Part shown: piece by piece, positions 10,517-26,237 of the stretch | Numbering within the stretch: the stretch's first letter is position 1 | Layout: each line of letters opens with the position of its first letter | Origin: Thermococcus piezophilus | GTDB taxonomy: Archaea > Methanobacteriota_B > Thermococci > Thermococcales > Thermococcaceae | Direction: 5' to 3' | Assembly (NCBI RefSeq): GCF_001647085.1 | Contig: NZ_CP015520.1 | Span: forward strand, 1,260,219 to 1,324,218 | Length of the DNA: 64,000 bases | Position numbers and translations under genes: made by a program | The notes under the pieces: model-generated | Seen by the model: only the letters and a program-made list of their open reading frames with translations | Database searches by the model: none | What the model was told of the DNA's origin: nothing

Positions 10517-10598
10517 TTCTCTCACCTGTTTCTAGGTTTGCCAGGGGCTTTTTAAATGTTGCATAAAAAAGAATTTCATGTAACTTCAACTAAAAGGA

Positions 10599-10620
10599 TA
10601 ATCTCTCCAACTGGAGATTA
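10599..10620. repeat. Inverted repeat between hypC and tetR
   Basis: The core TCTCCA-AC-TGGAGA (10604-10617) is a perfect 6+2+6 palindrome, flanked by TAATC and TTA. It lies upstream of the hypC TATA box and well upstream of the tetR promoter, in otherwise AT-rich non-coding DNA. A regulator site acting on hypCD is possible; nothing ties it to a named protein. Confidence 0.35.
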
Positions 10621-10774
10621 CAGTTCCACCTCAAGACCTGATTAAACTCGCAAACTAAAAAATTCTCAAGGACTAAGGGGCTTGTCCTCCTTTAGGAGCT
10701 CTTCTTACCTCCATGATGAACACAAGTCTTCCCCGCGAATTATTTGAATTGCCGTAACTTTTTTATATAACGCC

Positions 10775-10792
10775 ACTGACCTCGCAGTCAGT
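10775..10792. promoter_or_regulatory. Operator overlapping the tetR promoter
   Basis: ACTGAC-CTCGCA-GTCAGT is a perfect inverted repeat with 6-base arms, placed directly after the TATA box TTTTTATATAA (10760-10770) and spanning the expected transcription start. The same two arms occur at the fdhA promoter (11742-11755) with a 2-base spacer. Self-repression by the TetR-type protein encoded at 10814 is the natural inference. Confidence 0.65.
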
Positions 10793-10813
10793 ATAACGCG
10801 GGGAGTGCTGGGA

Positions 10814-11365
10814 ATGTACACCAGAGAGAGGATACTGAAAGCTGCAGAGGAACTCTTTGCCGAGAAGGGCTACGATAAAACTACCGTTGATGAAATCGTT
10901 GAGAGGGCAGGGGTTGCTAAGGGCACTTTCTACAACTACTTTAAGAGTAAAGAGGAGCTGATAAAAATCGTCGCTCTCCAGTCCCTGCCGTACTCTGCAA
11001 TAAGGGAGGAGCTTGAAAGAGAGCACGAGAGCCTTACGGAGTTTCTGCACAGTATTGCAAAGGCGTACATTGTATATTACTGCGATCCGGTCTTGCGATC
11101 CCTATTCTTCTACACGCTGGCAGTAAGAGGCAAAATAAAAGATGTCGAGGAAATCCACAGGACATTCTGCACAGAGGCGATTTCCAAGGGTGCCAAGAAA
11201 ATATCTCAGCTCGCAAACGTGGATGAAAAAACTGCCCTGGTGGTTTTTAAGGCGTTTTATGGTGCCCTCTTTTCGAGAGTGGTTTTTGTTGAATATTCGT
11301 GCACCCCGGATGTGGATTACGTTTCAGAACTCATCAAGTTAATAGAGAAAAGTTTGAAAAACTAG
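10814..11365 (+). CDS. TetR/AcrR-family transcriptional regulator
   Basis: 183 residues from ATG 10814, chosen because GGGAG at 10801-10805 is well spaced. The N-terminal helix-turn-helix is clear: TTVDEIVERAGVAKGTFYNY, then FKSKEELI. The C-terminal half is a helical ligand/dimer domain of unknown ligand. The gene stands alone in front of the formate dehydrogenase-hydrogenase cluster, same orientation, and identical half-sites lie at its own promoter and at fdhA. It probably represses both. Formate, CO2 or a redox-linked metabolite as inducer is speculation; TetR regulators are relatively uncommon in Thermococcales, so lateral acquisition is possible. Confidence 0.9.
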   Translation: MYTRERILKAAEELFAEKGYDKTTVDEIVERAGVAKGTFYNYFKSKEELIKIVALQSLPYSAIREELEREHESLTEFLHSIAKAYIVYYCDPVLRSLFFYTLAVRGKIKDVEEIHRTFCTEAISKGAKKISQLANVDEKTALVVFKAFYGALFSRVVFVEYSCTPDVDYVSELIKLIEKSLKN

Positions 11366-11741
11366 GCGGTGCTGTGAATAATTTTTTGCATAATCCCGTT
11401 TTCTTGAGCATCTTTGTGCATTTGGGCGTTATTGTCCGGGAGTGGTAAACATAATCACTAAATGGGTCCTTTCTCATTTGGAAAATCTGTTTAACTTAAG
11501 GATGTTTTTTGTGTTCATCTCGTTATTGTAGTTCAAAGTGCAGATCCATATACGCGAATTGTTGCCCATTTTAGCATTCTCATTCCGGTCTGAATAATAT
11601 AATTTTGGTGGACAACAAAATCCATACTTTTTGTTACCAATTGACCAAAGAACACAAACTTGCACTAAAAACCAACTGTGTGTACAATACAACGTTAAGG
11701 AAAACTATTTAAATGATTTATTACTCACTGCATTTGAGTAA
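11366..11741. other. AT-rich non-coding region upstream of the formate hydrogenlyase cluster
   Basis: About 375 bases without a convincing gene; the only ORFs are short and lack family features or ribosome sites. It is markedly more AT-rich than its surroundings. The fdhA TATA box (CTATTTAAATG, about 11705-11715) lies at its end, giving an expected transcription start near 11738, right before the operator at 11742. The length leaves room for upstream regulator sites; I find no full SurR or TGM match here. Confidence 0.6.
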
Positions 11742-11755
11742 ACTGACTAGTCAGT
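11742..11755. promoter_or_regulatory. Operator at the fdhA promoter
   Basis: ACTGACTAGTCAGT is a perfect 14-base palindrome positioned about 30 bases after the TATA box (about 11705-11715) and about 24 bases before ATG 11779, at or just after the expected start of transcription. Arms match those at the tetR promoter (ACTGAC and GTCAGT), although the spacer is 2 rather than 6 bases. Such placement suits repression of the whole 16-gene cluster. Confidence 0.68.
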
Positions 11756-11778
11756 CATAGCCGACTTGGGTGATGCAT

Positions 11779-13842
11779 ATGGCAGAGAAGTTGGTGCCAG
11801 TAGTCTGCCCGTGGTGTTCCGTTGGTTGTAGGTTCTACATAGTAAATGTGAATGGATACCCCAAGAAGATCGAGTTCGACTATGAGAATGACATCAGGAA
11901 CCACGGCAAGCTCTGTCCAAAAGGTGTCGCTGCCTTCCAGTACCTCAGACATCCGGACAGACTCAAGAGACCTCTCAAGAGAGTCGGCGAGAGAGGCGAG
12001 GGCAAGTTCGTGGAGATAAGCTGGGATGAAGCAATTAAGGAGATCGCACAAAAACTAAGTGAAATCAAGGAAAAGTACGGTCCTGAGGCTCTTGCCTTCC
12101 TTGGGAGTGAGAGGTGCTCCATAGAGGAGAACTATGTTCTCCAGAAGCTGGCTAGAGCTTTAGGCACCAACAACCTTGACTACGTTTGTAGAATGTGTCA
12201 GTCAACGGCCGTTGCTGGCAAAGGAATGCTTCTTGGGCATCCTGGTCTTACGAATCCATTCGAGGACATCTTTAAGGCTAAAGTTATCGTTCTTTGGGGA
12301 TACAATCCAGCCGCAACTAATCCGGTTTTCTTCGGCCAGTACATTGAGAAGGCAATTCTCGACAACAATGCCACTCTCATTGTCGTTGACCCGAGGAAAA
12401 CGAAGACCGCCAAGTACGCGGACATACATCTACAACCCTATCCCGGAACTGACCTTGCCGTTGCACTGGCTATGCTCAACGTCATAATCACCGAGGAGCT
12501 CTACGATAAGGACTTCGTGGCGGAGCGCGCGGAGGGCCTTGAGGAGCTCTCCAAGACCGTCGAAAAGTACACTCCAGAATGGGCTGAGAAGGTCAGCGGC
12601 GTTCCTGCTGAGCTCATAAGGAAGGCCGCAATCACCTTTGCAACGGCCGGAACCGCGGCCCTGCTAACGAACGAGGGAGTGAACCAGCACGCCAACGGAA
12701 CAAGGACAGTTATGGCCCTCACCGAGATGATGGTTCTATGTGGCTACTTCGGAAAGGAGGGCGTCATGTCTGGAGCCATACCCGGTGCTCACAACGGTAT
12801 GGGTGCTGGACTCATGGGTGTAGAACCGGATGCACTGCCAGGAAAGTTCCCACTTCACGCCGAAGAGCACAGGAGGAGAATTGAGGAAGTGTGGGGCTTC
12901 AAGATTCCGGAGAAGCCTGGAATAACTTACGTTGAAATGGTTGATGCGCTCCTTAAGGGCAAGCTCAAGGCCCTCTACGTTATGGGAACCAATCCTGCAA
13001 AATCCCTTCCAAACCTTAAGAAGGTTGAGGAGGCCTTTAAGAACATTGAGTTCCTCGTTGTCCAGGACATCTTCCTCACTGAAACCGCGAGATACGCTGA
13101 CATGGTCCTTCCAGCGGCCGCATGGTTTGAGAAGGATGCAACTGCTGTAAGCTTCGAGAGGAGGGTTCAGAGGAGCTTTAAGGCTGCTGATGCGCCAGGG
13201 GAGGCCAAGCCGGACTGGGAGATTATCGTAATGCTCGCGAAGGAGCTTGGACTTGGGGAGTACTTCAACTACTCCGATGTGGACGATATACTGAGGGAGA
13301 TAAACAGAACTATTCCATTCCTCACCGGCGCCACACCAGAGAGACTCAAAAAGAATCTTAAAGGCTGTATGACACCGTGTCCAGACGAGAGCACCGAAAC
13401 ACCGAGACTCTTTGTCCAAGGCTTCCTGACGCCGAACGGAAAGGCCCAACTCATCCCTGTGGAGTATGAAGAGCCCGGAGAGGTTCCAGATGAGGAATAT
13501 CCATTCTGGCTCACCAACTACAGGTTCGTTGGTCAGTTCCACACCGGAACTATGAGCCACAGGAGCAAGAGCCTGAGCAAGAGGTGGCCGGAGGAGTATG
13601 TAGAGATTAACGAAAACGATGCCAAAAGGCTTGGCATAAAGGACGGCAACCTCGTGAAGGTTGAAACAAGGAGAGCAGCGCTGGTTCTCAAGGCCAAGGT
13701 TACACCGCACATCAGGGAGGGCGTCGTTGCCGTGCCGTGGCACTGGGACTTCAACTATCTGACCACCGATGTCCTTGACGAATACGCCAAGATGCCCGAG
13801 TTGAAGACGGCCGCATGTAGAATCTCCAAGGTTGAGGGGTGA
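11779..13842 (+). CDS. fdhA: Formate dehydrogenase catalytic subunit (molybdopterin/tungstopterin, FdhF-like)
   Basis: About 687 residues. The N-terminal [4Fe-4S] site is CPWCSVGC plus a later KLCPKG. The catalytic stretch is VCRMCQS; by counting from ATG 11779 the second cysteine is residue 140, the position of Sec140 in E. coli FdhF. The neighbouring His of FdhF is Gln here. Other family markers are GYNPAATNP, GVNQHANG and the C-terminal MopB domain (PHIREGVVAVPWHW). It should oxidise formate to CO2 with a bis-MGD cofactor (Mo or W) and pass electrons to FdhB. In-frame GTG 11770 and ATG 11773 precede ATG 11779; the latter fits the GGTG at 11769-11772 best. Confidence 0.85.
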   Translation: MAEKLVPVVCPWCSVGCRFYIVNVNGYPKKIEFDYENDIRNHGKLCPKGVAAFQYLRHPDRLKRPLKRVGERGEGKFVEISWDEAIKEIAQKLSEIKEKYGPEALAFLGSERCSIEENYVLQKLARALGTNNLDYVCRMCQSTAVAGKGMLLGHPGLTNPFEDIFKAKVIVLWGYNPAATNPVFFGQYIEKAILDNNATLIVVDPRKTKTAKYADIHLQPYPGTDLAVALAMLNVIITEELYDKDFVAERAEGLEELSKTVEKYTPEWAEKVSGVPAELIRKAAITFATAGTAALLTNEGVNQHANGTRTVMALTEMMVLCGYFGKEGVMSGAIPGAHNGMGAGLMGVEPDALPGKFPLHAEEHRRRIEEVWGFKIPEKPGITYVEMVDALLKGKLKALYVMGTNPAKSLPNLKKVEEAFKNIEFLVVQDIFLTETARYADMVLPAAAWFEKDATAVSFERRVQRSFKAADAPGEAKPDWEIIVMLAKELGLGEYFNYSDVDDILREINRTIPFLTGATPERLKKNLKGCMTPCPDESTETPRLFVQGFLTPNGKAQLIPVEYEEPGEVPDEEYPFWLTNYRFVGQFHTGTMSHRSKSLSKRWPEEYVEINENDAKRLGIKDGNLVKVETRRAALVLKAKVTPHIREGVVAVPWHWDFNYLTTDVLDEYAKMPELKTAACRISKVEG

Positions 13843-13847
13843 TTTAA

Positions 13848-14345
13848 ATGAGCAAGAAGATATTTATCGATTTTAAGCGCTGTATCGCTTGTAAGGCCTG
13901 TGAAGTGGCCTGTGAGATGGAGCACGGGGAGGCAAGGATTAGGGTTTTTGAGTTCCCCGACTTGACCAGCGTCGCCTTCAACTGCCGCCACTGTGAAAAG
14001 GCCCCATGCGTTGAGGTCTGCCCAACCAACGCGCTCTCCAAGGACGATGATGGCGCAGTCGTTCTCGATCCCCTCAAGTGTATCGGCTGTCTCATGTGCG
14101 GTCTGGCCTGTCCATTCGGCATTCCAAAGATAGACGAGTACAACAAGATAATGGACAAGTGTGACCTCTGCGCCCACCGCAGAGCAGAGGGTAAGCTTCC
14201 CGCATGTGTCTCAGCGTGTCCAACTGAGGCCCTCAAGTACGGCGACATAAACGATGTCCTCTGGGCCAGAGAAGGAAAGATAGTTGCCGAGTTTAAGGAC
14301 ATTGGTGACAGGACCAACGTCCTCGAGGCCTACCTCATCAGATGA
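13848..14345 (+). CDS. fdhB: Formate dehydrogenase iron-sulfur subunit (HycB/HydN-like)
   Basis: 165 residues with four cysteine groups typical of four [4Fe-4S] clusters: CIACKACEVAC, CRHCEKAPCVEVCP, CIGCLMCGLACP and CDLC with CVSACP. This is the HycB/HydN electron carrier that links formate dehydrogenase to the membrane hydrogenase. It starts five bases after fdhA and its stop region overlaps an upstream in-frame start of the next gene. All cluster ligands appear present. Confidence 0.9.
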   Translation: MSKKIFIDFKRCIACKACEVACEMEHGEARIRVFEFPDLTSVAFNCRHCEKAPCVEVCPTNALSKDDDGAVVLDPLKCIGCLMCGLACPFGIPKIDEYNKIMDKCDLCAHRRAEGKLPACVSACPTEALKYGDINDVLWAREGKIVAEFKDIGDRTNVLEAYLIR

Positions 14346-14359
14346 AAGGAGGTGCCGGG

Positions 14360-15811
14360 ATGAACGCCTCTCCCTTCATCATATCTTTTTTAATTCCCCT
14401 CATCCTTGGTCCCTTTCTGTTTAAGCTGGACGGTAGAAAAGCTGATGTGTTCATGCTCATCGCCGTTGTGTCTTCCTTCCTTGTTAACCTTGTGGGAGTC
14501 CTCGAATACCTAAAGGTCGGTGGCGCTCATCACATCGTTTACCTCGAAACTTCCTCCCTCGGTGAGGTGTACGGCGTTATAATCGACCCGATGAGTGTTC
14601 TGGTTGGTTTCATAGTTAGCCTCGCCGGCGTGCTGTTCCTTCTCTACGCGGTTGATTATATGAGCGAGAGAAACAAGCAGCACCCCGTCTACTCTGATAA
14701 GGGCAGGTTCTATGCGTGGATGGTCATCTTCGTCGGGGCAACGCTGGCATTCATATACTCCTCCACAACGCTTCAGCTGCTCATATTCTTCGAGATAATG
14801 GGGCTCGCCTGCTGGGGTGTTGTTGGATACTATAGAAGTCCAAAGGCCGAGAGAGCGGCCTATAAAGCTCTCCTCGTGCCCAACTTTGGTGCCATGATTG
14901 GCCTCTACACCACCGTTGGCATTGGCATCCTCAAACTCCACGATCTTAGTCTTTACGCTCTTCAGAACCTGAATGATGAGCTCAAGCTTTTGGTCTTTTT
15001 GGGTATAATGGTTGCTGCTTTCACCAAGAGTGCCCAGTTCCCACTCTATTCATGGCTTCCTGATGCAATGGCTGCTCCAACACCTGCTTCCGCTTTTCTC
15101 CACGGTGCTGCAATGGTTGAAATGGGAGTTTACCTGCTCGCTAGGGTCACCCAGTTCATGCAACCGATTCCGGAGACAGCTTTCTACGTTATGCTCGTCT
15201 TCGTGTCGCTAACTTTACTCATAGCAATCCTCTACTACCCGCTCCAGAAGGACGCCAAGAGACTCCTTGCTTATTCAACCATAGCAGAGGCAGGAGTGAT
15301 GTACGTTGGCGTGCTCTATGCCGTGTTTGGCTCTGTCTACGGCCTCCAGGCGGCCATGTTCCAGCTGGCTAACCATGCTTTCGTCAAGGGTCTTGCCTTC
15401 CTCACCGCGGGAACCTTCAGTTACGCTTTTGGAACGCTCGACATGGAAAAGATTAGGGGCCTCGGAAAGCTCGTTCCGGTCGTTGGTGCAAGCTGGTTCC
15501 TGGCCCTTCTCGGCCTGGCTGGAGTTCCCCCGCTCGGCCTGTTCTTCAGCAAGGCGTATCTCTTCATGAACGCGTCTTCAATAACCAGCTGGGTTGGCTG
15601 GATTCCGCTCTTCCTAGTGCTGGCCGATGCCACGGTTTTCCTTGCGGTATCTCTCGGATGGATTAAGAGGATGGTGTTCAGCGAGCCCCTCCAGGAGAGT
15701 GCAGAAGTTTCCCCGCTGATGCGCTTTGTCCTCGTGGTTTTAATAATCCTGTCCATCGTTGCGCCGTTCCTAAGCGTGAAGCTCGTGACTCAGATAGGGT
15801 TCATGGGGTGA
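14360..15811 (+). CDS. Membrane hydrogenase antiporter-like subunit (NuoM/HyfB/MrpD family)
   Basis: About 483 residues, strongly hydrophobic with roughly 14 membrane helices. The family core, FTKSAQFPLYSWLPDAM and then TPASAFLHGA, contains the conserved lysine and histidine of the proton or ion path. ATG 14360 follows GGAGGTG at 14348-14354, so the in-frame ATG at 14342 is unlikely. Within the complex it would translocate H+ or Na+ driven by electron flow from formate to protons. Confidence 0.85.
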   Translation: MNASPFIISFLIPLILGPFLFKLDGRKADVFMLIAVVSSFLVNLVGVLEYLKVGGAHHIVYLETSSLGEVYGVIIDPMSVLVGFIVSLAGVLFLLYAVDYMSERNKQHPVYSDKGRFYAWMVIFVGATLAFIYSSTTLQLLIFFEIMGLACWGVVGYYRSPKAERAAYKALLVPNFGAMIGLYTTVGIGILKLHDLSLYALQNLNDELKLLVFLGIMVAAFTKSAQFPLYSWLPDAMAAPTPASAFLHGAAMVEMGVYLLARVTQFMQPIPETAFYVMLVFVSLTLLIAILYYPLQKDAKRLLAYSTIAEAGVMYVGVLYAVFGSVYGLQAAMFQLANHAFVKGLAFLTAGTFSYAFGTLDMEKIRGLGKLVPVVGASWFLALLGLAGVPPLGLFFSKAYLFMNASSITSWVGWIPLFLVLADATVFLAVSLGWIKRMVFSEPLQESAEVSPLMRFVLVVLIILSIVAPFLSVKLVTQIGFMG

Positions 15812-15817
15812 TGTGGG

Positions 15818-17791
15818 ATGATGGAAATTTCAATCGCGCTCTACTCACTCTCAGCGATTTCCGGTCTGATAAAGGATTTTAGGCGGAGCATTAAGATTTC
15901 AAGCGTCCTCTCAGCCATAGCATCCCTATCCCTTCTGGGCGTAACTGTTCATGCCCTGTCCAGGGGGCTTCCCGTTCGGGAGAGCTTTTTGGGCATTCCC
16001 CTAATCATAGACAGCCTCTCCCTCCCGTTCCTGTTCATCATAGCCCTACTCAGCCTCGTGGTTTCAGTGTACTCCATTTCATACATGGAAGTTCACAGAA
16101 CTACCGGAAGACCGCTGGCATATGCACTCCTATACAGCACGTTTGTGATATCAATGATTTTCGTGGCTCTGACGTCAAACCTGCTATGGTTCGTCTTCTT
16201 CTGGGAGCTGATGACTCTAACGTCCTTCGTCTTTGTGAGCTGGAGGCAGCAGGACGCTGGAATTAAATACCTCATCACGATGCAGGTGTTTAACACGGTG
16301 CCCCTCTTCGTGGCCCTCGGCATAATCTACTCCGCCACCGGGAGCTTCAGCGTTGATTACGCCACGCTTAAGACATCTTCCCTTTCTCCGACCCAGATCA
16401 AGCTGCTCTACGCGATGTTCCTTGTAACATTTCTTGCAAAATCTGGGAGTGTTCCATTCCAGTTCTGGGTGCCCGATGCGTATCAATCTGCCCCCAGCAA
16501 TATAGCCTCGCTGATGGCCGGTGCGATGGAGAAGATGGCGATTTACGGTCTGATAAGGCTCCTCTGCAACGTCCTACCATGCAGTGAAGGCATTGGTTAC
16601 GTTCTCGTTATCGTTGGTATACTTACCATGACCTTCGGAACCATCTATGCCCTCAGAGAAACCCACGCGAAGAGGCTCCTCGCTTACTCAAGCGTTGGAC
16701 AAATGGGCTACATCTGGTTCGCGGTAGGCATGGGCATGGTCTTCTTAGCAAAGGGCATGGAGAGCCTGGCTTACCTGGCCTTCCTCGCCGGAGTCTTCCA
16801 CTCCTTCAATCACGCACTCTTCAAGGGACTACTCTTTCTCATCTCGGGCAACTTCGAGTACTCCGCCGGAACGGCTGACCTCAACGAGCTTGGTGGCTTG
16901 AGGAGGGCAATGCCGTACTCGTCGCTCTTCACCGCCATAGGTGCGCTCTCCCTCGCTGGAGTGCCCCTCTTCAGTGGCTTCCTCTCGAAGTGGATGATTT
17001 ACCAGGCTGGCTACTACTCTGGAATCGGCCTCTTCGTCTTTGGCTCCGTAATGGCGGTGTTTATGAGTGCCGTAACCTTGGCGTACTCGCTCAAGCTCTA
17101 CACCTCTGCCTTCGGAGGCGAACCGAACGAGAGAACTGAGAACGCCAGGGAAGTCCCGTCGGGCATGCTCCTCGGTGAGGGAATTATTGCCTTAACTTCA
17201 CTTGCCGTTGGAATACTTCCGGCTATCGCTTACCCGATATTAACGATTTCATTGAATGGCAGCGACGTCACCGTTACAATGGGTTCTATATCCACTGACT
17301 TTGAGTACTTCTCGCCAATAGCCCTGCTCCTTGCGGTTTCATTTATTGCGGTTGCTTCGTACTTCGTCTTCAGGCCAAAGACGACCAACGTCAAACCATG
17401 GAACGCTGGAGCGCTTTTCCTGCCGGAAGAGAGGTATGGAGCGAAGGCCAGGGACTATTACAAACCGTATTTCACTGAGATGAGCGGTATCTACACCCTT
17501 GGAAGCGCCGCTGGCAAGGTTGGAAGGGCCCTCCTCTCTGCCCTGATGTCCATCTACCTCGTTCTCGCCAGGGGCCTCGTCTACACCGGCAGGGAGAAGA
17601 AGCGCTCCTTCACCCTTGACGAGCTTCGACAGAGTACCGTCAGGTACCTGGACGAGGCATTCTTCGCGCCGATGATGGATCTACTCAAAAACATCGCCGT
17701 GCTGGCAGCGGGCATCTCGGTGTCCATGGACGAGCTCTTCCTGGCTTCAATGCTGACCACGGTGATAATACTCGCACTCCTTGTGTTGTGA
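15818..17791 (+). CDS. Membrane hydrogenase antiporter-like subunit, long form (NuoL/HyfB family)
   Basis: 657 residues. The NuoL/MrpA-type core shows FLAKSGSVPFQFWVPDAY and PSNIASLMAGAMEKMAIY, with many membrane helices. The last about 150 residues form a soluble segment plus a final helix, as in HycC/HyfB. It lies between the shorter antiporter-like gene and the HycD-like gene, fitting a HycC equivalent in the formate hydrogenlyase membrane arm. ATG 15818 and ATG 15821 are adjacent and cannot be told apart. The C terminus overlaps the spacer of the next gene. Confidence 0.85.
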   Translation: MMEISIALYSLSAISGLIKDFRRSIKISSVLSAIASLSLLGVTVHALSRGLPVRESFLGIPLIIDSLSLPFLFIIALLSLVVSVYSISYMEVHRTTGRPLAYALLYSTFVISMIFVALTSNLLWFVFFWELMTLTSFVFVSWRQQDAGIKYLITMQVFNTVPLFVALGIIYSATGSFSVDYATLKTSSLSPTQIKLLYAMFLVTFLAKSGSVPFQFWVPDAYQSAPSNIASLMAGAMEKMAIYGLIRLLCNVLPCSEGIGYVLVIVGILTMTFGTIYALRETHAKRLLAYSSVGQMGYIWFAVGMGMVFLAKGMESLAYLAFLAGVFHSFNHALFKGLLFLISGNFEYSAGTADLNELGGLRRAMPYSSLFTAIGALSLAGVPLFSGFLSKWMIYQAGYYSGIGLFVFGSVMAVFMSAVTLAYSLKLYTSAFGGEPNERTENAREVPSGMLLGEGIIALTSLAVGILPAIAYPILTISLNGSDVTVTMGSISTDFEYFSPIALLLAVSFIAVASYFVFRPKTTNVKPWNAGALFLPEERYGAKARDYYKPYFTEMSGIYTLGSAAGKVGRALLSALMSIYLVLARGLVYTGREKKRSFTLDELRQSTVRYLDEAFFAPMMDLLKNIAVLAAGISVSMDELFLASMLTTVIILALLVL

Positions 17792-17801
17792 GGTGATGGT
17801 G

Positions 17802-18704
17802 ATGGACTACGTAAGCATTATCGCTGCTCCGATCGTCCTCTTCCTCCTTCCACCGTTCCTTGATGGAATAGGGAGAAGGATAAAGGCAAGGATTCAGTAC
17901 AGGAGAGGACCGCCTATAATGCAGACGTTCTACGACCTCGAAAAGCTTCTCAAGCTGCCGTCAGTGCTTCCAACTGAGAGCATAATTTTCAGACTGGCAC
18001 CGTACATAGCCCTGGCATCTGCCATTGCCGGCGGCCTAATGCTTCCCTTCGGAAGCGAGTCGGTGTTGGCTTTTGGAAAGAGCCTCATAGTGTTCTTCTA
18101 CGTCATGGCGATGGTCAGCGTAGTGATGATACTCGCCGCTTTCTCCGTCCAGAACGCGTTCTCTCACATAGGCGGACACAGAGAGGTCATGCTGATACTC
18201 TCGATTGAGCCAGTGCTGGCTGTCGTCTTCGGTGTCCTGGCATTCAAGCTTGGAACGCTCAACGTCGCTGAGATGCCCTTCAGCGCTAACCTCTCGCTTT
18301 CCGTTGCCCTCGCTTACATCCTGCTGGCTTATGCGGTCTACGTTGAGAGCGGATTCGTTCCATTTGACATAGCTGAGGCGGAAACCGAAGTAATCGGGGG
18401 TCCCCTTACAGAGTACAGCGGAAGGCTCCTCGGAATCTTCAAGTACGCCCTGCTGATTAAAAGGATTGTCCTGCTCTGGTTGCTGGCGTCCATGATTGTG
18501 ATTCCCGCCATGAGGTCTCTCGGTATAACAAGCTCAATGGCACTGCTCGTCGCCCAGCTGGTCGCTACGTTTCTGCTTTATTCGCTTGCCGTGGCCGTTG
18601 AGGCTGCAAACGCCCGCCTGAGGATCGACCAGGCGGTTTCCCTTAACAAGAAGGTCTTCCTGATGTCCCTTGCTGTCCTGATAATAGCGCTGGTGGGGTG
18701 GTGA
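17802..18704 (+). CDS. Membrane hydrogenase subunit, NuoH/HycD family
   Basis: About 300 residues, roughly eight membrane helices. The cytosolic loop RIKARIQYRRGPPIMQTFYD and the acidic stretch VPFDIAEAETEVIGGPLTEYSG are the NuoH/HycD signatures that contact the hydrogenase module. ATG 17802 has GAGGTG just upstream; the reading frame opens earlier with TTG inside the previous gene. The subunit anchors the peripheral arm and likely links electron flow to ion movement. Confidence 0.9.
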   Translation: MDYVSIIAAPIVLFLLPPFLDGIGRRIKARIQYRRGPPIMQTFYDLEKLLKLPSVLPTESIIFRLAPYIALASAIAGGLMLPFGSESVLAFGKSLIVFFYVMAMVSVVMILAAFSVQNAFSHIGGHREVMLILSIEPVLAVVFGVLAFKLGTLNVAEMPFSANLSLSVALAYILLAYAVYVESGFVPFDIAEAETEVIGGPLTEYSGRLLGIFKYALLIKRIVLLWLLASMIVIPAMRSLGITSSMALLVAQLVATFLLYSLAVAVEAANARLRIDQAVSLNKKVFLMSLAVLIIALVGW

Positions 18705-18707
18705 GAT

Positions 18708-20459
18708 ATGGAGTGCAGCGTGTGTGCGGGTGGATGCAGATCGGCTGAAGTTGAGGACGTCCTTGAGGATGGTCATCTAAAGGAATTCGTGGAGAAGTTT
18801 AGGAGATCGATTTTCGAGTGCAAGAAGCTGACGAGGAACCAGTACCTGTTCATCGTTGATAAAGATACACTTCCGGAGATGGTGCTCCACTGGCACAACC
18901 ATCCCGAGCTGAAAGAAACTCACTATTCAACGAGCATCGGGACGGATGAGAGGAACATCGCCGGAAAGTTCGCCTACGCTCCGGTGATAAACGTCACCGT
19001 TGAGCCTGGAAACGGGGAGAGGAACTACTGGGTTATTCTGAAGGCCTACCTCGACGAGGACAACCCAGAGTTTCCATCAATAGCCGCAAAGCTTCCCGCG
19101 GCTTTGTGGGCGGAGAGGGAAGTCTACGACCTGCTCGGCTTCAACCCCAAAGGCCATCCGGATTTGAGAAGGCTCATACTCCCGGAGGATTGGCCCGAGG
19201 GTGTTTACCCGCTTAGGAAGGACCATGACTACAAGGCCTCGCCGATGGATACGCCAAAGTGTTACTACAAGCCCGGGCCGCCCGACACAATGACGGTTCC
19301 AATCGGCCCGTACCACCTGGCGCTCGACGAGCCGGCCCACTTCAGGATATTCGTCAAGGGAGAAACGGTGGTTGACGTTGACTACCGCGGCTTCTACTCC
19401 CACAGGGGAATTGAGAAGATAGGTGAGGGAAGACTGACCTACAACCAGGTGCTCTTCATAGCCGAGAGGGTATGTGGAATCTGTGGCTTCCAGCACTCGA
19501 CGAGCTACGCCCAGGCGGTTGAAAACATAGCCGGCATTGAAATTCCCGAGAGGGCCATGTACATAAGGGCGGTAATGCTTGAGCTTGAGAGGATTCACTC
19601 CCACATGCTCTGGGCCGGTGTTGCGGCCCATTTGACGGGCTTTGACACGGGATTCATGCACGCTTGGCGCGTCAGAGAGCCCGTCATGTGGCTCGCTGAG
19701 AGGCTCACCGGCAACAGGAAGACCTACGGACTCAACATCGTCGGAGGGGTTAGGAGGGACTTCCTCGACTACCGCAAGGAGATGATAATGGAGAAGATCA
19801 AGGAGCTCAGGAGGCAGGTCGAGGAGTTCATCGAAATAGCGACCGGTACGGCAACCTTCGTCAAGAGGGCCGAGGGGGTTGGAATTCTGCCGTACAAAGT
19901 GGCCAAGGCTTATTCGGTCCTCGGTCCGAACGGTAGGGCCAGCGGGAGGAACATTGACATTAGAAGGGATCAGCCGTTCGCAGCATACAAGGATTTGGAC
20001 TTTAAGGTTCCAGTCTACAAGGAGGGCGACGTCTTGGCAAGGTTCCTCATCAGGATGGACGAGGTTCTTGAGAGCATCTGGCTCATCGAGCAGGCCATTG
20101 ATCAGATGCCAGGAGGAGACGTCTTCATGCCGATAGGGGAGCTCCCGGAGTATGAAGAGGCCCTTGGCTACAGTGAAGCTCCAAGGGGTGAAGTCATCCA
20201 CTACGTCATGACTGACAAGAAGAACAAGGTCTACCGCTGGAAGATCAGGGCGCCGACTTACAACAACCTTCCAGCTGTTCCGGAGATGCTCAAGGGTTAT
20301 AGCGTTGCCGATGCCCCGCTCATCATAGCGAGCATAGATCCGTGCTACTCCTGTACGGAGAGGGTCCAGATAGTGGACGTTGAGACCGGAAAGGCCCAGA
20401 CTCTGAACGAGCAGCAGTTCAACATGCTCTCGATAGAGAAGGGCAAGGGGGTGGCCTGA
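18708..20459 (+). CDS. [NiFe]-hydrogenase large subunit, group 4 (NuoC-NuoD fusion, HycE-like)
   Basis: 583 residues. Residues about 1-170 are the NuoC-like domain and the rest is the catalytic NuoD-like domain. Nickel ligands lie in ERVCGICGFQHST (L1) and DPCYSCTERV (L2). HycE is cut by HycI after the Arg of DPCxxCxxR; the same site here would remove about 31 residues, and a HycI-like protease is encoded at 27501-27977. An unusual N-terminal motif CSVCAGGC (C3, C6, C10) may bind metal. The protein reduces protons with electrons from formate. Its stop overlaps the next start by one base. Confidence 0.93.
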   Translation: MECSVCAGGCRSAEVEDVLEDGHLKEFVEKFRRSIFECKKLTRNQYLFIVDKDTLPEMVLHWHNHPELKETHYSTSIGTDERNIAGKFAYAPVINVTVEPGNGERNYWVILKAYLDEDNPEFPSIAAKLPAALWAEREVYDLLGFNPKGHPDLRRLILPEDWPEGVYPLRKDHDYKASPMDTPKCYYKPGPPDTMTVPIGPYHLALDEPAHFRIFVKGETVVDVDYRGFYSHRGIEKIGEGRLTYNQVLFIAERVCGICGFQHSTSYAQAVENIAGIEIPERAMYIRAVMLELERIHSHMLWAGVAAHLTGFDTGFMHAWRVREPVMWLAERLTGNRKTYGLNIVGGVRRDFLDYRKEMIMEKIKELRRQVEEFIEIATGTATFVKRAEGVGILPYKVAKAYSVLGPNGRASGRNIDIRRDQPFAAYKDLDFKVPVYKEGDVLARFLIRMDEVLESIWLIEQAIDQMPGGDVFMPIGELPEYEEALGYSEAPRGEVIHYVMTDKKNKVYRWKIRAPTYNNLPAVPEMLKGYSVADAPLIIASIDPCYSCTERVQIVDVETGKAQTLNEQQFNMLSIEKGKGVA

Positions 20460-21076
20460 TGGCCCAGGCGATTTCATTCACCGACAGGCTCAAGTTCTGG
20501 AAGCGACCAGAGGAGGACGTTAAGAAGGCTCCTGTTACGACATCTTATCCTTTCGTTGACATTGAAAAGCCACCGGAGTACAGGGGTATACCTCACATAG
20601 ATCCCCATCTCTGCATTGGCTGTGGTGCCTGTGTTAGGGCCTGTCCACCGGATGCCCTAACGATAGAGTGGGACTTTGAGAACGGGAGGAAGAGGATAGT
20701 CTTCAACGCCGCGCGCTGTATAAGGTGCCACCGCTGCGTCGAGGTCTGTCCAACCGGTGCGATGCAGGGCACGACGAGGTTTGAAATAGCGACGCCGAAC
20801 AAGGAGGACCTCATCGAGGTCGTTGACCACAAACTCTACAGGTGCCCGCGCTGCGGAAAATACGAGGAGTTCACGGAAAGACAGGTTCAGAAGATGTTTC
20901 AGATTCTGCCGAAGGAAGTCATTGACCAGCACGGCATAGCCGAGAGGGCTTTTCTCTGCAGGGAGTGCAGGATGGAGGAGAGCGCCAAGACCTTGGCGGT
21001 TCAAGGGCCCTACGCTGACAGCCTTCTCCTTTCCCTCTATCCGAGAGGCTCAAAGGTGATGGGTGAGAGGAGATGA
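20459..21076 (+). CDS. Hydrogenase ferredoxin-like subunit (NuoI/HycF family)
   Basis: 205 residues. Two [4Fe-4S] clusters are indicated by CIGCGACVRACP and CIRCHRCVEVCP. Beyond the standard domain, CPRCGKYEEF and CRECRM form a probable zinc or rubredoxin-like site in the C-terminal third. The subunit carries electrons from FdhB to the small subunit. Start and stop overlap both neighbours (1 and 4 bases), showing tight coupling. Confidence 0.9.
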   Translation: MAQAISFTDRLKFWKRPEEDVKKAPVTTSYPFVDIEKPPEYRGIPHIDPHLCIGCGACVRACPPDALTIEWDFENGRKRIVFNAARCIRCHRCVEVCPTGAMQGTTRFEIATPNKEDLIEVVDHKLYRCPRCGKYEEFTERQVQKMFQILPKEVIDQHGIAERAFLCRECRMEESAKTLAVQGPYADSLLLSLYPRGSKVMGERR

Positions 21077-21873
21077 GCGGGTTGAAGTCTGTTTGGGTAT
21101 TCCACGTTGACAGCGGAAGCTGCAACGGCTGCGACATAGAGATACTTGACGTGCTCACGCCATACTATGATGTGGAGAGGCTCGGAATAAAGCTCGTGCC
21201 GAGTCCAAGACATGCCGATGCCCTCCTCGTTTCAGGCCCACTCACGAGGCAGACTTACTACGCTGTCAAAGCCGCCTACGAGGCGATGCCGCCAAAACCG
21301 AGGATAGTTGTGGCCGTAGGTACCTGCGCGTCCAGCGGGGGTATATTCTACAATGGCTATCCAATCTATAACCCGAACCCGGAGAGAGGAAGCGACAGGC
21401 TCAGGACGGGCGGAATAGAGGTTCTCCTGGCAGAATACGGGAAAAAGCCAGACATATACATTCCGGGATGCCCGCCGAGCCCGGAGGAGATACTCTATGG
21501 TTTAGCCCAGCTCCTCGGCCTGAAGGAGAAGAAGATGAAGGGCGAGTATTACTATGCAGACGAGATTGAGTTCGTCCTGCCCGACAGACCCATCGAGGAA
21601 AGGATTTACCTGACGCTCAGAGAATCCCTAAGGCGCGTCGTGGGGTACTTCGATAGGGAGAAGGTTCTCGAGGACTTCATGGCCCTCGTGGAAAAGGCCC
21701 AGGAGAGCGAGAACCCGAGGAAGAGGCTCCACGAGCTTGTTACTGGCTACTTCCTGAGGGAGAAGGACTCCCGTGTGAAGTTCGCGATAAGGTTCCTCGA
21801 AAACGAGTACTGGAGGTTGAAGGATGCCTATGAAAAGAGGCACCTGGCACTTGTTAAAGCTGGTTTACGTTAA
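21073..21873 (+). CDS. [NiFe]-hydrogenase small subunit (NuoB/HycG family)
   Basis: 266 residues. The proximal [4Fe-4S] ligands are in GSCNGCDIE, VGTCASSGGI and PGCPPSPEEI, as in NuoB/HycG proteins that hold a single cluster. The C-terminal about 90 residues (rich in Lys, Arg and Glu) extend beyond the core. It relays electrons to the nickel site in the large subunit. It overlaps the preceding gene by four bases. Confidence 0.92.
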   Translation: MSGLKSVWVFHVDSGSCNGCDIEILDVLTPYYDVERLGIKLVPSPRHADALLVSGPLTRQTYYAVKAAYEAMPPKPRIVVAVGTCASSGGIFYNGYPIYNPNPERGSDRLRTGGIEVLLAEYGKKPDIYIPGCPPSPEEILYGLAQLLGLKEKKMKGEYYYADEIEFVLPDRPIEERIYLTLRESLRRVVGYFDREKVLEDFMALVEKAQESENPRKRLHELVTGYFLREKDSRVKFAIRFLENEYWRLKDAYEKRHLALVKAGLR

Positions 21874-22129
21874 TCCACCTTACTTCTCAAAGGCGATGGC
21901 GCATTTCGCCGGCGACATGGCCGTGTTAGAGGAAATAGGAACGCTGAATGAGAAAACCGTCGAGATAATCAAGGAGAGCCTCGGGACAAAGGGAAACGAG
22001 ATAGACCTGTCTATAGGCGACCTTATACTGATACCAGTTGAAAGATTGCCCGAGAACGATAGGAATCTCCTCTTAAAGGTCGCCCAGGAGCTTGAAGCGG
22101 ACGCCAAGCTCAAGATAGTGAGGAGGTGA
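21824..22129 (+). CDS. Small soluble protein of the hydrogenase cluster, function unknown
   Basis: Up to 101 residues, no cysteines and no membrane segment. The annotated frame begins inside the small-subunit gene (50-base overlap). ATG 21824 and ATG 21830 are the only nearby in-frame ATGs; the next one would delete a quarter of the protein. The sequence reads as a compact alpha/beta domain. It sits exactly between the hydrogenase and antiporter gene sets, followed four bases later by mnhF, so it may be a complex-specific assembly or linker factor. I do not recognise a family. Confidence 0.6.
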   Translation: MPMKRGTWHLLKLVYVNPPYFSKAMAHFAGDMAVLEEIGTLNEKTVEIIKESLGTKGNEIDLSIGDLILIPVERLPENDRNLLLKVAQELEADAKLKIVRR

Positions 22130-22133
22130 GGGT

Positions 22134-22418
22134 ATGAGCCTTGAGTCCCAGTTCTTCCTGCTGATGAAGTTTGTGATACCGGTTTATCTGCTGGCTTTCA
22201 TTATCTATGCCGTCAGAGCCTTCAAAGGTCCCACAATAGTGGATATTATCCTTGCTGTTGACTGTCTCTCTTTCGATGTGGCAGCGTTCATGGCCATCCT
22301 TGCGGTTTACTTTAAGAGCGTTTACTTAGTGAGCGGGGCTATAATACTCGCTCTTTGGGCGTACCTGCTGGATATCTACGTTGCAAAGTACTTGGTGAGC
22401 AGGGAGGTGGGAGCATGA
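22134..22418 (+). CDS. mnhF: Na+/H+ antiporter subunit MnhF/MrpF
   Basis: 94 residues with three membrane helices. The motif RAFKGPTIVDIILAVDCLS near residue 25 is typical of MrpF (RxxxGPtxxDRvlalD). It opens the antiporter half of the cluster and overlaps mnhG by four bases. MrpF is a structural part of the Mrp complex in the cytoplasmic membrane. Confidence 0.87.
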   Translation: MSLESQFFLLMKFVIPVYLLAFIIYAVRAFKGPTIVDIILAVDCLSFDVAAFMAILAVYFKSVYLVSGAIILALWAYLLDIYVAKYLVSREVGA

Positions 22419-22765
22419 GCGTTCTGTTTTACATAGGAGCGCTCCTGATAGTCATTGGTGGCATCTGCGACTTATTTGGTGCCCTTGGACTCTTAAAATT
22501 CCCGAACTTTTACGTTAGGTTACATGCTGCTACGGTAGGAACTATTGGAGGAGCAGTAGTGCCGTTATTCGGCGTTGCCCTGCTTGCCCTCGGTGCGGAC
22601 TTCCTCCCCCACAGGTACGCCATCGCTGGTGCAAGCTTCATCACCGGCATAATAGTCCTCCTCGCAGCACCAGCGGGCGCTCACGCTTTGGCCTACGCTG
22701 CTCACAAGGCCAAGCTCGTGGAGTGGAAGCCAAAAGTCGACCACCTCAAGGAGGTGAGAGAGTGA
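22415..22765 (+). CDS. mnhG: Na+/H+ antiporter subunit MnhG/MrpG
   Basis: 116 residues from ATG 22415, preceded by GGAGGTGGG and overlapping the mnhF stop in an ATGA arrangement. Three membrane helices; the segment GLLKFPNFYVRLHAATV with GTIGG after it is the MrpG signature. A membrane component of the antiporter module. Confidence 0.87.
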   Translation: MSVLFYIGALLIVIGGICDLFGALGLLKFPNFYVRLHAATVGTIGGAVVPLFGVALLALGADFLPHRYAIAGASFITGIIVLLAAPAGAHALAYAAHKAKLVEWKPKVDHLKEVRE

Positions 22766-23016
22766 TTGAAATCCACCTGCTTATCCTCAGCCTTGCCCTC
22801 ATCCTGGGATTCATAGCCAGCTATCTGGCGGTGATGGAGAGAGATCTGCTTAAGGCAGTGGGCTTTTCCTCTGTCCAAGCAATAGCCTACGCCATAGCAT
22901 TCTACATCCTGATGGCGCCGGACATAGTTCTCGCCTACATAGCGATAGCCGTGGGAATATACTCTGCCCTGCTGATATTCGCCATCAGCAAGACCGAGAG
23001 GTACGAGGTGGTGTGA
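22762..23016 (+). CDS. MbhD/DUF4040-like antiporter subunit (MrpA C-terminal type)
   Basis: 84 residues from GTG 22762, which follows GGAGGTGA and overlaps the mnhG stop. Two to three membrane helices, corresponding to the DUF4040/MbhD part that in bacteria belongs to the long MrpA subunit. In archaeal Mbh-type complexes this part is a separate gene, as here. The earlier in-frame ATG at 22723 lies inside mnhG and is unlikely. Confidence 0.78.
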   Translation: MIEIHLLILSLALILGFIASYLAVMERDLLKAVGFSSVQAIAYAIAFYILMAPDIVLAYIAIAVGIYSALLIFAISKTERYEVV

Positions 23017-23790
23017 ATGAGGGGCAAGGGCCTCATCACGGCGGTTATAATCCTGACCTTCGCCGCGCTCATGACTTACGCTGTTGTCTCCCTCCAGGTC
23101 TTCAGCGAGGGTACCGGAGTCAGACCTCTCGGCGAATTCTACTTAGAAAACAGTTATTTCGGGGATTATTCTGCTAAGAGTCCTGAGGTTGTTACCTCAA
23201 TCCTCTGGGACTACCGTGGCATTGACACGCTCTTTGAGACTGCAGTGTTCTTCCTCGCAATAATTGGAAGCTTAACCATCTTCAGACTCACCAAAGAGCA
23301 GGAGAAAGAGGTCAAGAAGGTTGAAAGCGCTCCAACCGAGCTGACACCAATAGTGAAGGACGTTACTAAAGTTATCGTTGCGATGATTCTTGCCGTTTCG
23401 GCCTCGATTGCTCTACACGGTCACTTAACGCCTGGTGGTGGTTTCCAGGGTGGTTCGGCTTTGGCAGTTGCTCCATTGTTGATAATCGCAGCTTACTCCA
23501 AGTACGCCCTCGAAAAGAATGGCCTGGATAAAACGAGAGCATTAATCCTTCGTTCCATTGGTCTCCTGGGAATTGCTCTCGTAGCGTTAGTCCCCTTGCT
23601 CAGCGGTGGTTTCGTCATGCAGAACCAGCCGATATTCCCTGCTGAAATTGGAGGCCAACTTATCGGTGGTTCCCTAATCTACTACAACTTCTTCGAGTTC
23701 CTGGCCGTTGGCGCTGGATTCACGGCGGTATTCCTCCTCCTAAGCATCCCAGAAGAAAAATTCAAGAAAATCCTGGAGGTGAAGAAATGA
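23017..23790 (+). CDS. mnhB: MbhE-MnhB fusion antiporter subunit
   Basis: 257 residues. Residues about 1-100 (two helices and a loop containing DYRGIDTLFETAVFF) match the MbhE or MrpA-tail type. Residues about 115-250 are MnhB, with the signature HGHLTPGGGFQGGSAL. In Mbh-type clusters these parts are often separate genes (MbhE, MbhF); here they form one frame. It directly abuts the previous stop and overlaps mnhC by four bases. Confidence 0.85.
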   Translation: MRGKGLITAVIILTFAALMTYAVVSLQVFSEGTGVRPLGEFYLENSYFGDYSAKSPEVVTSILWDYRGIDTLFETAVFFLAIIGSLTIFRLTKEQEKEVKKVESAPTELTPIVKDVTKVIVAMILAVSASIALHGHLTPGGGFQGGSALAVAPLLIIAAYSKYALEKNGLDKTRALILRSIGLLGIALVALVPLLSGGFVMQNQPIFPAEIGGQLIGGSLIYYNFFEFLAVGAGFTAVFLLLSIPEEKFKKILEVKK

Positions 23791-24179
23791 GCACTTCAGA
23801 GTTCCTGTGGGCTTACCTCTGGGTCGTCTTACTGCTCACGCTGGCGGTATCGCTGTACGGCATAATCGCTAGGCCGAACATGCTGAAGAAAATTATATCC
23901 CTCACGATACTCGGCGATGCCGTCAACGTCATGGTCGTTCTCATAGGCTACCGCCTCACCTATCCAATCGCCCCGCCAATACTGCCATCGCTCTCAAAAG
24001 AAGCGTTGGAGGGGTTTGTGAGTTCTGCCGTTGACCCGCTTCCGCAGGCGCTCGTTATCACTGCGGTCGTCATAGGAATGGCGGTGAACATACTCCTCGC
24101 GGTGCTGGCGATACAGCTCTACCGTCTCTACGGCACGCTCGACGTGAGGGAGATAGCGAAGAGGGGTGGTGAGGAATGA
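23787..24179 (+). CDS. mnhC: Na+/H+ antiporter subunit MnhC/MrpC (NuoK-like)
   Basis: 130 residues, three membrane helices. The NuoK/MrpC fold is seen in GIIARPNMLKKIISLTILGD and DPLPQALVITAVVIGMAV, with the acidic residue expected in the third helix region. Overlaps of four bases on both sides mark it as part of a single operon. Confidence 0.87.
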   Translation: MSTSEFLWAYLWVVLLLTLAVSLYGIIARPNMLKKIISLTILGDAVNVMVVLIGYRLTYPIAPPILPSLSKEALEGFVSSAVDPLPQALVITAVVIGMAVNILLAVLAIQLYRLYGTLDVREIAKRGGEE

Positions 24180-24661
24180 GGGGGGTCATTCCAACGGCCC
24201 TGCTCGCGTTCATCACGTACATAATCTTCACTGGTTCAAGCAGTCCCTACGATCTGTTCACTGGAGCGGTTGTGGCAGTAGGAGTAGGATTGCTTATGGG
24301 TAAATACGTTGTTCAGAATGATGCCAAGGCCATAAATCCAGTGAGGTGGCTGTGGGGTGTCATTTACTTCCTCTGGTATATGCTCGTGGCAGAGACGAAG
24401 TCCCACATAGACGTCATGATTAGGACAACCACCGGCAACTACAACCCCGGAATAGTTAAGGTGCCTATTGGTGTCGAGACAAGCTACGCTAAGACCCTCG
24501 TGGCGAACTCGATAACCAACACGCCCGGAACGGTCGTGGTGGACATGGACGAGAAGTACCTCTACGTGAACTGGATTGACGTGACGACTCTGGACCCTGA
24601 GAAGGCTAAGGGAGAAATCTCGGCGGACTTTGAGAGGTTCGCGAAGAGAATATTCGAGTGA
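24176..24661 (+). CDS. mnhE: Na+/H+ antiporter subunit MnhE/MrpE
   Basis: 161 residues: two to three N-terminal membrane helices, then a cytosolic domain containing SYAKTLVANSITNTPGTVVV, the hallmark of MrpE. It completes the set of small subunits; order F-G-(MbhD)-(MbhE/B)-C-E-D follows archaeal hydrogenase-linked Mrp modules. Confidence 0.88.
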   Translation: MRGVIPTALLAFITYIIFTGSSSPYDLFTGAVVAVGVGLLMGKYVVQNDAKAINPVRWLWGVIYFLWYMLVAETKSHIDVMIRTTTGNYNPGIVKVPIGVETSYAKTLVANSITNTPGTVVVDMDEKYLYVNWIDVTTLDPEKAKGEISADFERFAKRIFE

Positions 24662-24671
24662 GGTGAGGGGC

Positions 24672-26237
24672 ATGGATGTGGTTGGACTGACACCAATCAT
24701 TCCAGTACTGTTTGCCTTTGGCCTTCCTCTTACGTCGATTATTATCAAGGGCAACAGGAAGATAATCCAGGCTTATGCTTTGGTGGGCACGGGATTAACT
24801 TTAATCAGTGCCTTTAAGCTCTTCCAGCTGGCCTACTCCTCGGATAAACCGCTGATTTACACCTTTGGTAAGTGGGTCGCTCCGATAGGCATAATCTACG
24901 AGGTTGACAGAACTAGCGCTCTCATAGCCCTGGTTACAGCTGCCCTGATGTTCCTGATTGCGATTTACAGTTACCGTTATTTGGAGCACGAGGAGGGCTT
25001 AGAGTGGTACTATACCCTCTACCTCGGCCTTGAGGCTGGTTTACTCGGCGTTCTCCTTACGGGTGATGCATTCAACCTCTTCGTCATGATTGAAGTAACA
25101 AGCATCGCAGCATACGCCCTCGTGGCGTTCTACAGGGGAAGGAGGGATGCCGTGCACGCTGCTCTTAAGTACGCATTCATAGGCGCCATAGGAACCACCA
25201 TGTACTTCCTCGCGCTTGGAATACTCTACGGCGCCTTTGGCACGGTTAATCTTGCCGATTTGACGGCAAAGGTTCACGGAATGGACTTCCCTCTAACTGG
25301 TGCTCCAGTTGGGGATATCGTAGTTGCCTCGGGTGTTGCTTTGGCCTTGGCCACCTGGGCGTTCTTGATTAAGTCCGCCATAGTCCCGAACCACTTCTGG
25401 CTCCCAGAAGCCCACCCAGCAGCGCCGAGTTCAATCTCGGCTGTACTCTCCGGACTGGTCGTCAACGTCGGTGTTTACTCACTCATCAGGTTCCTCTACA
25501 CCGTCTATGGCGGCGAACTCGCACCGGGCTTGGCGAAAGTAGTTGGTACCCTTGGAACGGTGCTCATTGCCCTTGGTGCAATCTCGGCACTCTTCGGGGC
25601 CCTTATGATGAACGCCCAGAGAGACGTGAAGAAGCTCATCGCCTACTCCACGATAATGCACATGGGTTATCTGTTCATGGCCGTTGGCCTGGGCACCCAA
25701 CTTGGACTCCAAGCGGCACTTTTCCACATCATTAACCATGCCATCGCCAAGGCCCTCCTCTTCCTCGCCGCTGGGATGTTCATCCATGCCGCTGGCTCAA
25801 GGGACATCTCGGACCTGGCAGGCCTCGGCAGGCAGATGCCCGTCGCCACCTTCAGCCTGGCCATAGCAACGCTGAGCCTCGTCGGAATCCCGCCATTCAA
25901 CGTGTTCTTCAGCAAATTGTTGCTCTTCAACGCTTTGATGGAGAAAAGCTTTGCCCTAGCAATGGTCATAGTTGTCAGCTCAGTCACTGCGCTCGTTGCC
26001 TACATGCGCGTCCTCTACAGGGTATGGCTCGGCAAGCCGTCCAGAGAAGTGGTAATGGGAGAATCCGGGAGCATGGCATTCGTGGTGCTCCTGCTGGCGG
26101 CTGCGGTTGTTGTGATCGGCCTCGCCGCGCCGGTGATACTCCAGCACTACATCGAACCTGCCGCGGCCCAGACGATGGACTACAGGCTTTACATTCAAAC
26201 CGCCTTGGAGTATGCATCAAGATTAAAAATCCTCTAA
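24672..26237 (+). CDS. mnhD: Na+/H+ antiporter subunit MnhD/MrpD
   Basis: 521 residues from ATG 24672, with GGTGAGG upstream; the longer frame starting at 24630 overlaps mnhE without a ribosome site. About 14 helices, with FLIKSAIVPNHFWLPEAHP and PSSISAVLSGLVVNVGVYSL carrying the conserved lysine of ion-translocating subunits. It probably exchanges Na+ for H+, turning the hydrogenase's ion movement into a sodium gradient for ATP synthesis, as proposed for formate-grown Thermococcus onnurineus. Confidence 0.9.
   Translation: MDVVGLTPIIPVLFAFGLPLTSIIIKGNRKIIQAYALVGTGLTLISAFKLFQLAYSSDKPLIYTFGKWVAPIGIIYEVDRTSALIALVTAALMFLIAIYSYRYLEHEEGLEWYYTLYLGLEAGLLGVLLTGDAFNLFVMIEVTSIAAYALVAFYRGRRDAVHAALKYAFIGAIGTTMYFLALGILYGAFGTVNLADLTAKVHGMDFPLTGAPVGDIVVASGVALALATWAFLIKSAIVPNHFWLPEAHPAAPSSISAVLSGLVVNVGVYSLIRFLYTVYGGELAPGLAKVVGTLGTVLIALGAISALFGALMMNAQRDVKKLIAYSTIMHMGYLFMAVGLGTQLGLQAALFHIINHAIAKALLFLAAGMFIHAAGSRDISDLAGLGRQMPVATFSLAIATLSLVGIPPFNVFFSKLLLFNALMEKSFALAMVIVVSSVTALVAYMRVLYRVWLGKPSREVVMGESGSMAFVVLLLAAAVVVIGLAAPVILQHYIEPAAAQTMDYRLYIQTALEYASRLKIL

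Follow-up and report, generated by a model that had tools for sequence, protein, structure and literature searches.

Thermococcales can produce hydrogen from formate or operate this conversion in reverse. Their hydrogen metabolism is controlled by the sulfur-responsive regulator SurR, which also acts on formate hydrogenlyase (fhl) operons other than those considered here (PMC10025317). According to the sections of that review that deal with the fhl groups (Holden and Sistu 2023), Groups 2–4 lack SurR sites and their control mechanism is called unknown; a TetR/AcrR gene stands about 350 nt upstream of every Group 4 fhl operon except one, and the group is further marked by co-directional orientation of tetR and by the lack of a neighbouring formate-transporter gene or hydrogenase operon (PMC10025317).

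The fhl cluster analysed here lies in a stretch of 64,000 nucleotides of the Thermococcus piezophilus genome, hereafter the window, and resembles the Group 4 operons described in the review in two respects: a co-directional tetR gene stands upstream, and no SurR site is present (SurR reads GTTn3AAC, and this motif, GTTNNNAAC, occurs in neither intergenic region, 10526-10813 or 11366-11778). We infer that the window's cluster is probably a Group 4 fhl system. The sections of the review on Group 4 give no operator, autoregulation or second target (PMC10025317), and our search of the open-licence literature returned no report of an operator or regulon. The first-pass annotation had suggested that a cluster-specific repressor would be a new circuit; the occurrence of tetR upstream of fhl was already in print (PMC10025317), and the novelty lies in the operator and the regulon. 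Our comparison of sequences points to a dedicated, cluster-specific and self-regulating TetR repressor of one archaeal formate hydrogenlyase lineage, a reading to which we assign a probability of about 80%.

FadR of Sulfolobus acidocaldarius is likewise an archaeal TetR-family repressor with very few genomic sites that acts on its own gene cluster, and its binding stoichiometry depends on the operator, as set out in the portions of the paper cited here (PMC6449355). Its fold is similar to that of the window's regulator (6en8; TM-score 0.76 by query length), with 22% identity over the fold alignment; it differs in controlling fatty-acid genes and in binding acyl-CoA (PMC6449355). FadR and PfmR of Thermus thermophilus are likewise TetR-family regulators of a thermophile. 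A likeness between the Thermus FadR consensus and the window's operator was rejected, as the consensus in the part of the publication cited (TTRNACYNRGTNYAA; PMC5597230) differs in both half-site and spacing.

The regulator and its two palindromes

The regulator gene encodes an N-terminal helix-turn-helix domain of the TetR_N family (PF00440, 78.3 bits against a cut-off of 24). Its predicted structure is all-helical, with ten helices and a mean pLDDT of 93.1; the 50 structural matches listed by Foldseek are TetR-family chains throughout, and the top one among those listed is PfmR (3vpr). The named NCBIfam equivalogs assign it to no described regulator: 22 families matched, none above its cut-off, and the best was of the ScbR type (63.8 bits against 150). 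In the recognition-helix region, all 30 homologues have AKGTFY without variation. A trait of the TetR/AcrR family, a palindromic operator near the regulator's own promoter and a neighbouring one, appears to be present as well.

Table 1. Genes and candidate control elements of the tetR–fdhA region, in window coordinates.
Feature	Position	Strand	Basis or remark
TATA-like octamer TTTATATA, tetR promoter	10762..10769	+	sequence; starts 15 nt before the operator core
tetR operator ACTGACCTCGCAGTCAGT	10775-10792	.	conserved core TGAC-N6-GTCA, here TGACCTCGCAGTCA, at 10777-10790
TetR-family regulator, 183 aa	10814..11365	+	ATG at 10814; PF00440, E 3.8e-22
Decayed upstream operator TGACCAAAGAACAC	11642..11655	.	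relic, 102 bp before the fdhA operator
TATA-like octamer TATTTAAA, fdhA promoter	11706..11713	+	
fdhA operator	11742..11757	.	palindrome ACTGACTAGTCAGT at 11742-11755; composite TGACYRGTCAGTCA, here TGACTAGTCAGTCA, at 11744-11757; three half-sites
fdhA, formate dehydrogenase alpha subunit, first cluster gene	11779..13842	+	TIGR01591, 713 bits against a cut-off of 666
4Fe-4S protein, fdhB-like, second cluster gene	13848..14345	+	PF13247, E 7.4e-26
Co-directional membrane hydrogenase and antiporter-like frames, formate hydrogenlyase cluster	14342..26237	+	named by resemblance only

The first-pass annotation had described two palindromes on either side of the tetR gene, one directly after the tetR TATA box and the other near the expected start of fdhA transcription, and all of these positions hold (Table 1). 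The genes tetR and fdhA are co-directional and separated by 413 nt. Elsewhere in the window, positions 587-2032 encode a protein of 481 aa whose C-terminal domain is of the ion-channel type (PF07885) and whose long N-terminal part has no Pfam match.

The pattern ACTGACN{0,12}GTCAGT matches the window twice; 100 shuffles averaged 0.02 matches, and no shuffle gave as many as two. In the whole genome (1,928,800 bases) it occurs only at the tetR and fdhA sites. A spread of the half-sites over unrelated promoters, named in the first-pass annotation as grounds for refutation, was looked for genome-wide and is not seen. The shorter N6 consensus TGACYNNNNRGTCA is by itself not rare, with five places in the genome against eight for a reversed control pattern; within the window it is restricted to the tetR and fdhA sites, and it fell in both intergenic regions in none of 20,000 first-order Markov sequences (in either region in 43). 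The remaining three genomic matches lie within reading frames, and a wide regulon was rejected on this ground. The other two fdhA genes of the T. piezophilus genome have no operator site. Loose matching of ACTGACNNGTCAGT, with up to two mismatches, found fewer places (23) than the control did (34) and is therefore uninformative. Two off-cluster matches of ACTGACNNGTCAGT, one within a GalT-like frame in G070 and the other at the end of a phosphoesterase frame in G067, have no N6 motif and were taken as chance.

Conservation of the operator and its distribution

We compared the surroundings of 30 TetR homologues; nine more members of the group enter the counts below but not this comparison of loci. 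The result indicates that the conserved element is TGAC-N6-GTCA, equally spaced at tetR and fdhA. Two features put forward in the first-pass annotation do not survive this comparison: the 6-base arm ACTGAC is not conserved as a half-site, since among the six orthologous loci that keep the tetR site it occurs in the window only, the other five having AATGAC or GATGAC; and the spacer difference of six against two bases, raised there as a caution, is an artefact of where the arms were bounded, both window sites containing TGAC-N6-GTCA.

Eight genomes have a regulator orthologue of at least 80% identity, and the tetR-promoter site was found in six of them (as TGACCTCGCAGTCA, TGACCTCCCAGTCA or TGACTAAGCAGTCA) and not in the other two, G037 and G070. 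Over the 30 loci, the N6 consensus stands at the tetR promoter in 25, including most homologues of 35-43% identity; it is missing from G037, from G070 and from three loci of genus g3, and autoregulation is therefore not shared by all. In G037 (L009) and G070 (L010), the tetR operator is eroded and the fdhA operator intact, and autoregulation may be lost there.

The fdhA promoter carries the stricter composite, whose outer pair is likewise TGAC-N6-GTCA and whose positions 7-10 (GTCA) are variable at tetR sites. The difference between the two window operators is therefore the third half-site, at fdhA. In both operators, half-site centres are 10 bp apart, and a separation of about one helical turn suits a TetR-type dimer. 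The flanks vary among the 28 same-orientation fdhA sites compared (24 distinct 26-mers), and because the fixed letters are demanded by the pattern itself, our case rests on where the pattern is located and not on an alignment of fdhA sites.

We sought the composite in 94 Thermococcaceae genomes of about 1.0-2.4 Mb each. It occurs 62 times, in exactly the 39 genomes that have a close-group TetR homologue (E at most 2e-30); the other 55 all lack it, including ten in which the best TetR match reaches only 4.5e-13 or weaker; the reversed control of the composite occurred twice in the 94 genomes. When the search was widened to 115 genomes of the phylum, these 94 included, the 21 genomes of other families contained no composite. 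The co-occurrence in relatives that the first-pass annotation had anticipated is borne out: operator and regulator group together in 39 genomes and are both absent from 55.

All 62 composite sites lie in the formate hydrogenlyase cluster, 39 at fdhA and 23 upstream of tetR, which leaves little room for chance. At fdhA, 37 sites have midpoints 23.5-31.5 bp before the fdhA match; the other two, on broken contigs of G048 and G051, stand at the distance after tetR that is usual for fdhA sites and are followed by a cut-off fdhA. The composite is asymmetric, and in three of the 39 genomes (G048, G059 and G067) its orientation at fdhA is the opposite one. These genomes are related and so are not independent samples, for which reason a Fisher value for the co-occurrence is no fair measure of probability. 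Moreover, this fdhA lineage is hardly ever seen apart from the TetR, which partly confounds operator, regulator and operon.

The regulator of G088 is 42% identical to that of the window and 72% identical to that of G004, its FdhA matches that of the window at 91% identity over the first 556 residues, and the operator is still present. The regulator thus seems to have been exchanged and the operator retained (L012, L060; contig C120); with the genome 75% complete and the contig 3.1 kb long, the assembly here may be chimaeric. In G038, TGACTAACTAGTCA follows the TATA box of a second fdhA (74% identity), which suggests that the regulator acts in trans; the second fdhA of G089 has no operator site. 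The second fdhA cluster of G038, on contig C5 (L181, L089), includes hydrogenase-like frames, and no second close-group TetR was found in that genome.

The 23 distal composite sites, about 216-569 bp upstream of the tetR match, point to a second target. In 15 of 15 loci with a distal composite, the best-scoring or tied TATA-like octamer starts 16 nt earlier, and in 11 of the 15 a frame of 128-130 aa follows downstream; the one such frame that was scanned (G025, L096:12675-13061) belongs to DUF302 (PF03625). By whole-genome search and reading of the coordinates, a DUF302 match adjoins tetR in 20 genomes, 19 of which have the distal composite (the exception is G059). Four genomes (G018, G020, G021 and G046) have the distal site and no DUF302 gene there, and in G020 a 22-residue frame at the site resembles the start of DUF302; the genome of the window has two DUF302 matches elsewhere and no distal site. 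The small DUF302 gene sits between a hypC-like gene and tetR.

Promoter geometry, proposed mechanism and alternatives

The centre of an archaeal TATA box lies about 27 nt before the transcription start (PMC5316973, in the part cited here), which places the tetR operator of the window, like the distal operators, between TATA box and start. The 15-nt offset between octamer and operator core at tetR is repeated in the five other orthologous loci that keep the site, where the octamer is best-scoring or tied. At fdhA, the operator begins 37-38 nt after the TATA start in seven of the eight window-lineage loci, and in the remaining 20 loci 28-31 nt (17 loci) or 21 nt (three loci) after it; the fdhA operators therefore lie at or just past the expected start, except in the three loci with 21 nt, where they precede it. 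The tetR operator of distant relatives lies anywhere from 13 to 46 nt from the best TATA-like octamer, which leaves the blocking geometry at tetR doubtful there. Transcription starts of T. onnurineus TON_0281/0282 were sought in the published main text and are absent from it. In G087 (L008), the fdhA promoter lacks its TATA/BRE stretch, with no TATTTAAA left; the operon may be silent there or may use another promoter.

We propose that a TetR dimer would read TGAC-N6-GTCA through half-sites one helical turn apart; that at tetR, where the operator takes up the space from TATA box to start, the bound protein would hinder RNA polymerase and so bring about autorepression; that at fdhA, binding just past the expected start, or at the start in most distant relatives, would repress the operon; and that the regulator would leave the DNA once a signal acts on its all-helical domain. 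Because the fdhA operator has a third half-site that is lacking in tetR operators, fdhA is probably bound more tightly than tetR, or by a second dimer: three half-sites would leave room for a QacR-like pair of dimers on one operator. The first-pass annotation's dedicated local switch, targeting both fdhA and the promoter of the regulator itself, gains strong support from the comparison (39 against 55 genomes; 62 of 62 sites), with binding, repression and any response to formate as the parts that we infer.

The regulator might instead activate fdhA, or repress and activate from different sites, with the upstream operator serving activation or a loop. An exact upstream copy of the consensus is present in five of ten loci, 103-104 bp away in four, including G004, and 60 bp away in the fifth (G087), and a site about 104 bp off could act by looping or activation; in addition, FasR, among the closest folds listed, is described as an activator in the part of the source cited (PMC7382501). 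The common sites, however, span the region from the TATA box to just past the expected start, where activators rarely sit, and the upstream site is decayed in the window and has no exact copy in G040, G026, G037 (where a copy with one mismatch remains) or G088, all of which makes activation improbable. It is also quite improbable that another DNA-binding protein of the fhl lineage reads the operator and that tetR is a mere neighbour. Regulator, operator and operon are co-inherited, so co-occurrence cannot fully separate the two readings; but the tetR and DUF302 promoters carry the operator too, the operator stays with tetR at the far end of the cluster in G004, where the gene lies about 15 kb from the fdhA operator and still has its own, and fdhA genes of the 54-56% lineage in the TetR-free genomes G002, G003 and G034 are without the composite.

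That the palindromes arose by chance, or form hairpins in the transcripts, we consider barely credible. Location of 62 of 62 sites in one cluster excludes chance. A hairpin would fit the window's fdhA site, which lies in or near the expected 5' leader, but not the window-lineage tetR and distal sites: these begin 15-16 nt beyond the first base of the TATA-like octamer, which places them ahead of the expected transcription start and outside the transcript. A TetR repressor dedicated to this cluster remains our preferred reading. The defined operator, its positions and the list of 39 genomes make the SurR-free control of fhl experimentally tractable, and natural operators of a strong and a weak type, together with a heat-stable repressor, could provide a genetic tool for hyperthermophiles.

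Expression data and candidate signals

Published expression data hint that the inducing state is growth on peptides rather than formate. In what follows, we assume that Hyg4-I of T. onnurineus is a TetR-linked cluster. The Group 4 fhl of T. paralvinellae is expressed less on formate than on maltose or peptides (PMC10025317, in the section reporting Topcuoglu 2018), so formate induction is not suggested; Hyg4-I of T. onnurineus is expressed less on formate and on CO than in yeast extract-peptone-sulfur medium, in the part of the study cited (PMC5316973); and the fdh-mhy operon of T. litoralis, which is not tied to this lineage, is reported in the relevant passages to be raised by growth on peptides and lowered there by sulfur (PMC2432063). 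Of these three expression sources, only the review concerns operons that are stated to have the tetR gene, and its relevant section groups maltose with peptides (PMC10025317). In the portion cited of a further paper, fhl is said to answer to SurR only and not to formate, a statement in which the two fhl operons are not separated (PMC11959275).

C119, in the ligand domain, is unchanged across all 30 homologues, and a cysteine stands at this column in none of the 22 bacterial relatives aligned. In a separate scan, the best 80 of 331 relatives comprise three Thermococcus contigs and 77 bacterial ones. A second cysteine is present in all 30 homologues, in the C163 column in eight and two columns earlier in 22. 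Given that C119 is invariant and the second cysteine is kept within two columns, it is conceivable, though on the whole unlikely, that the two form a thiol sensor and that the regulator is a second, SurR-independent sulfur/redox switch for hydrogen metabolism. If so, operators of graded strength (the composite at fdhA and DUF302, the plain N6 element at tetR, and in some relatives a further upstream site) would tune the venting of electrons as H2 during growth on peptides. The response of the T. litoralis operon to peptides and sulfur would fit such a switch. The likeness of the modelled fold to regulators that respond to acyl groups, FasR (TM-score 0.81) and Sulfolobus FadR, which stand among many similar TetR folds, may be taken as a weak clue to the ligand.
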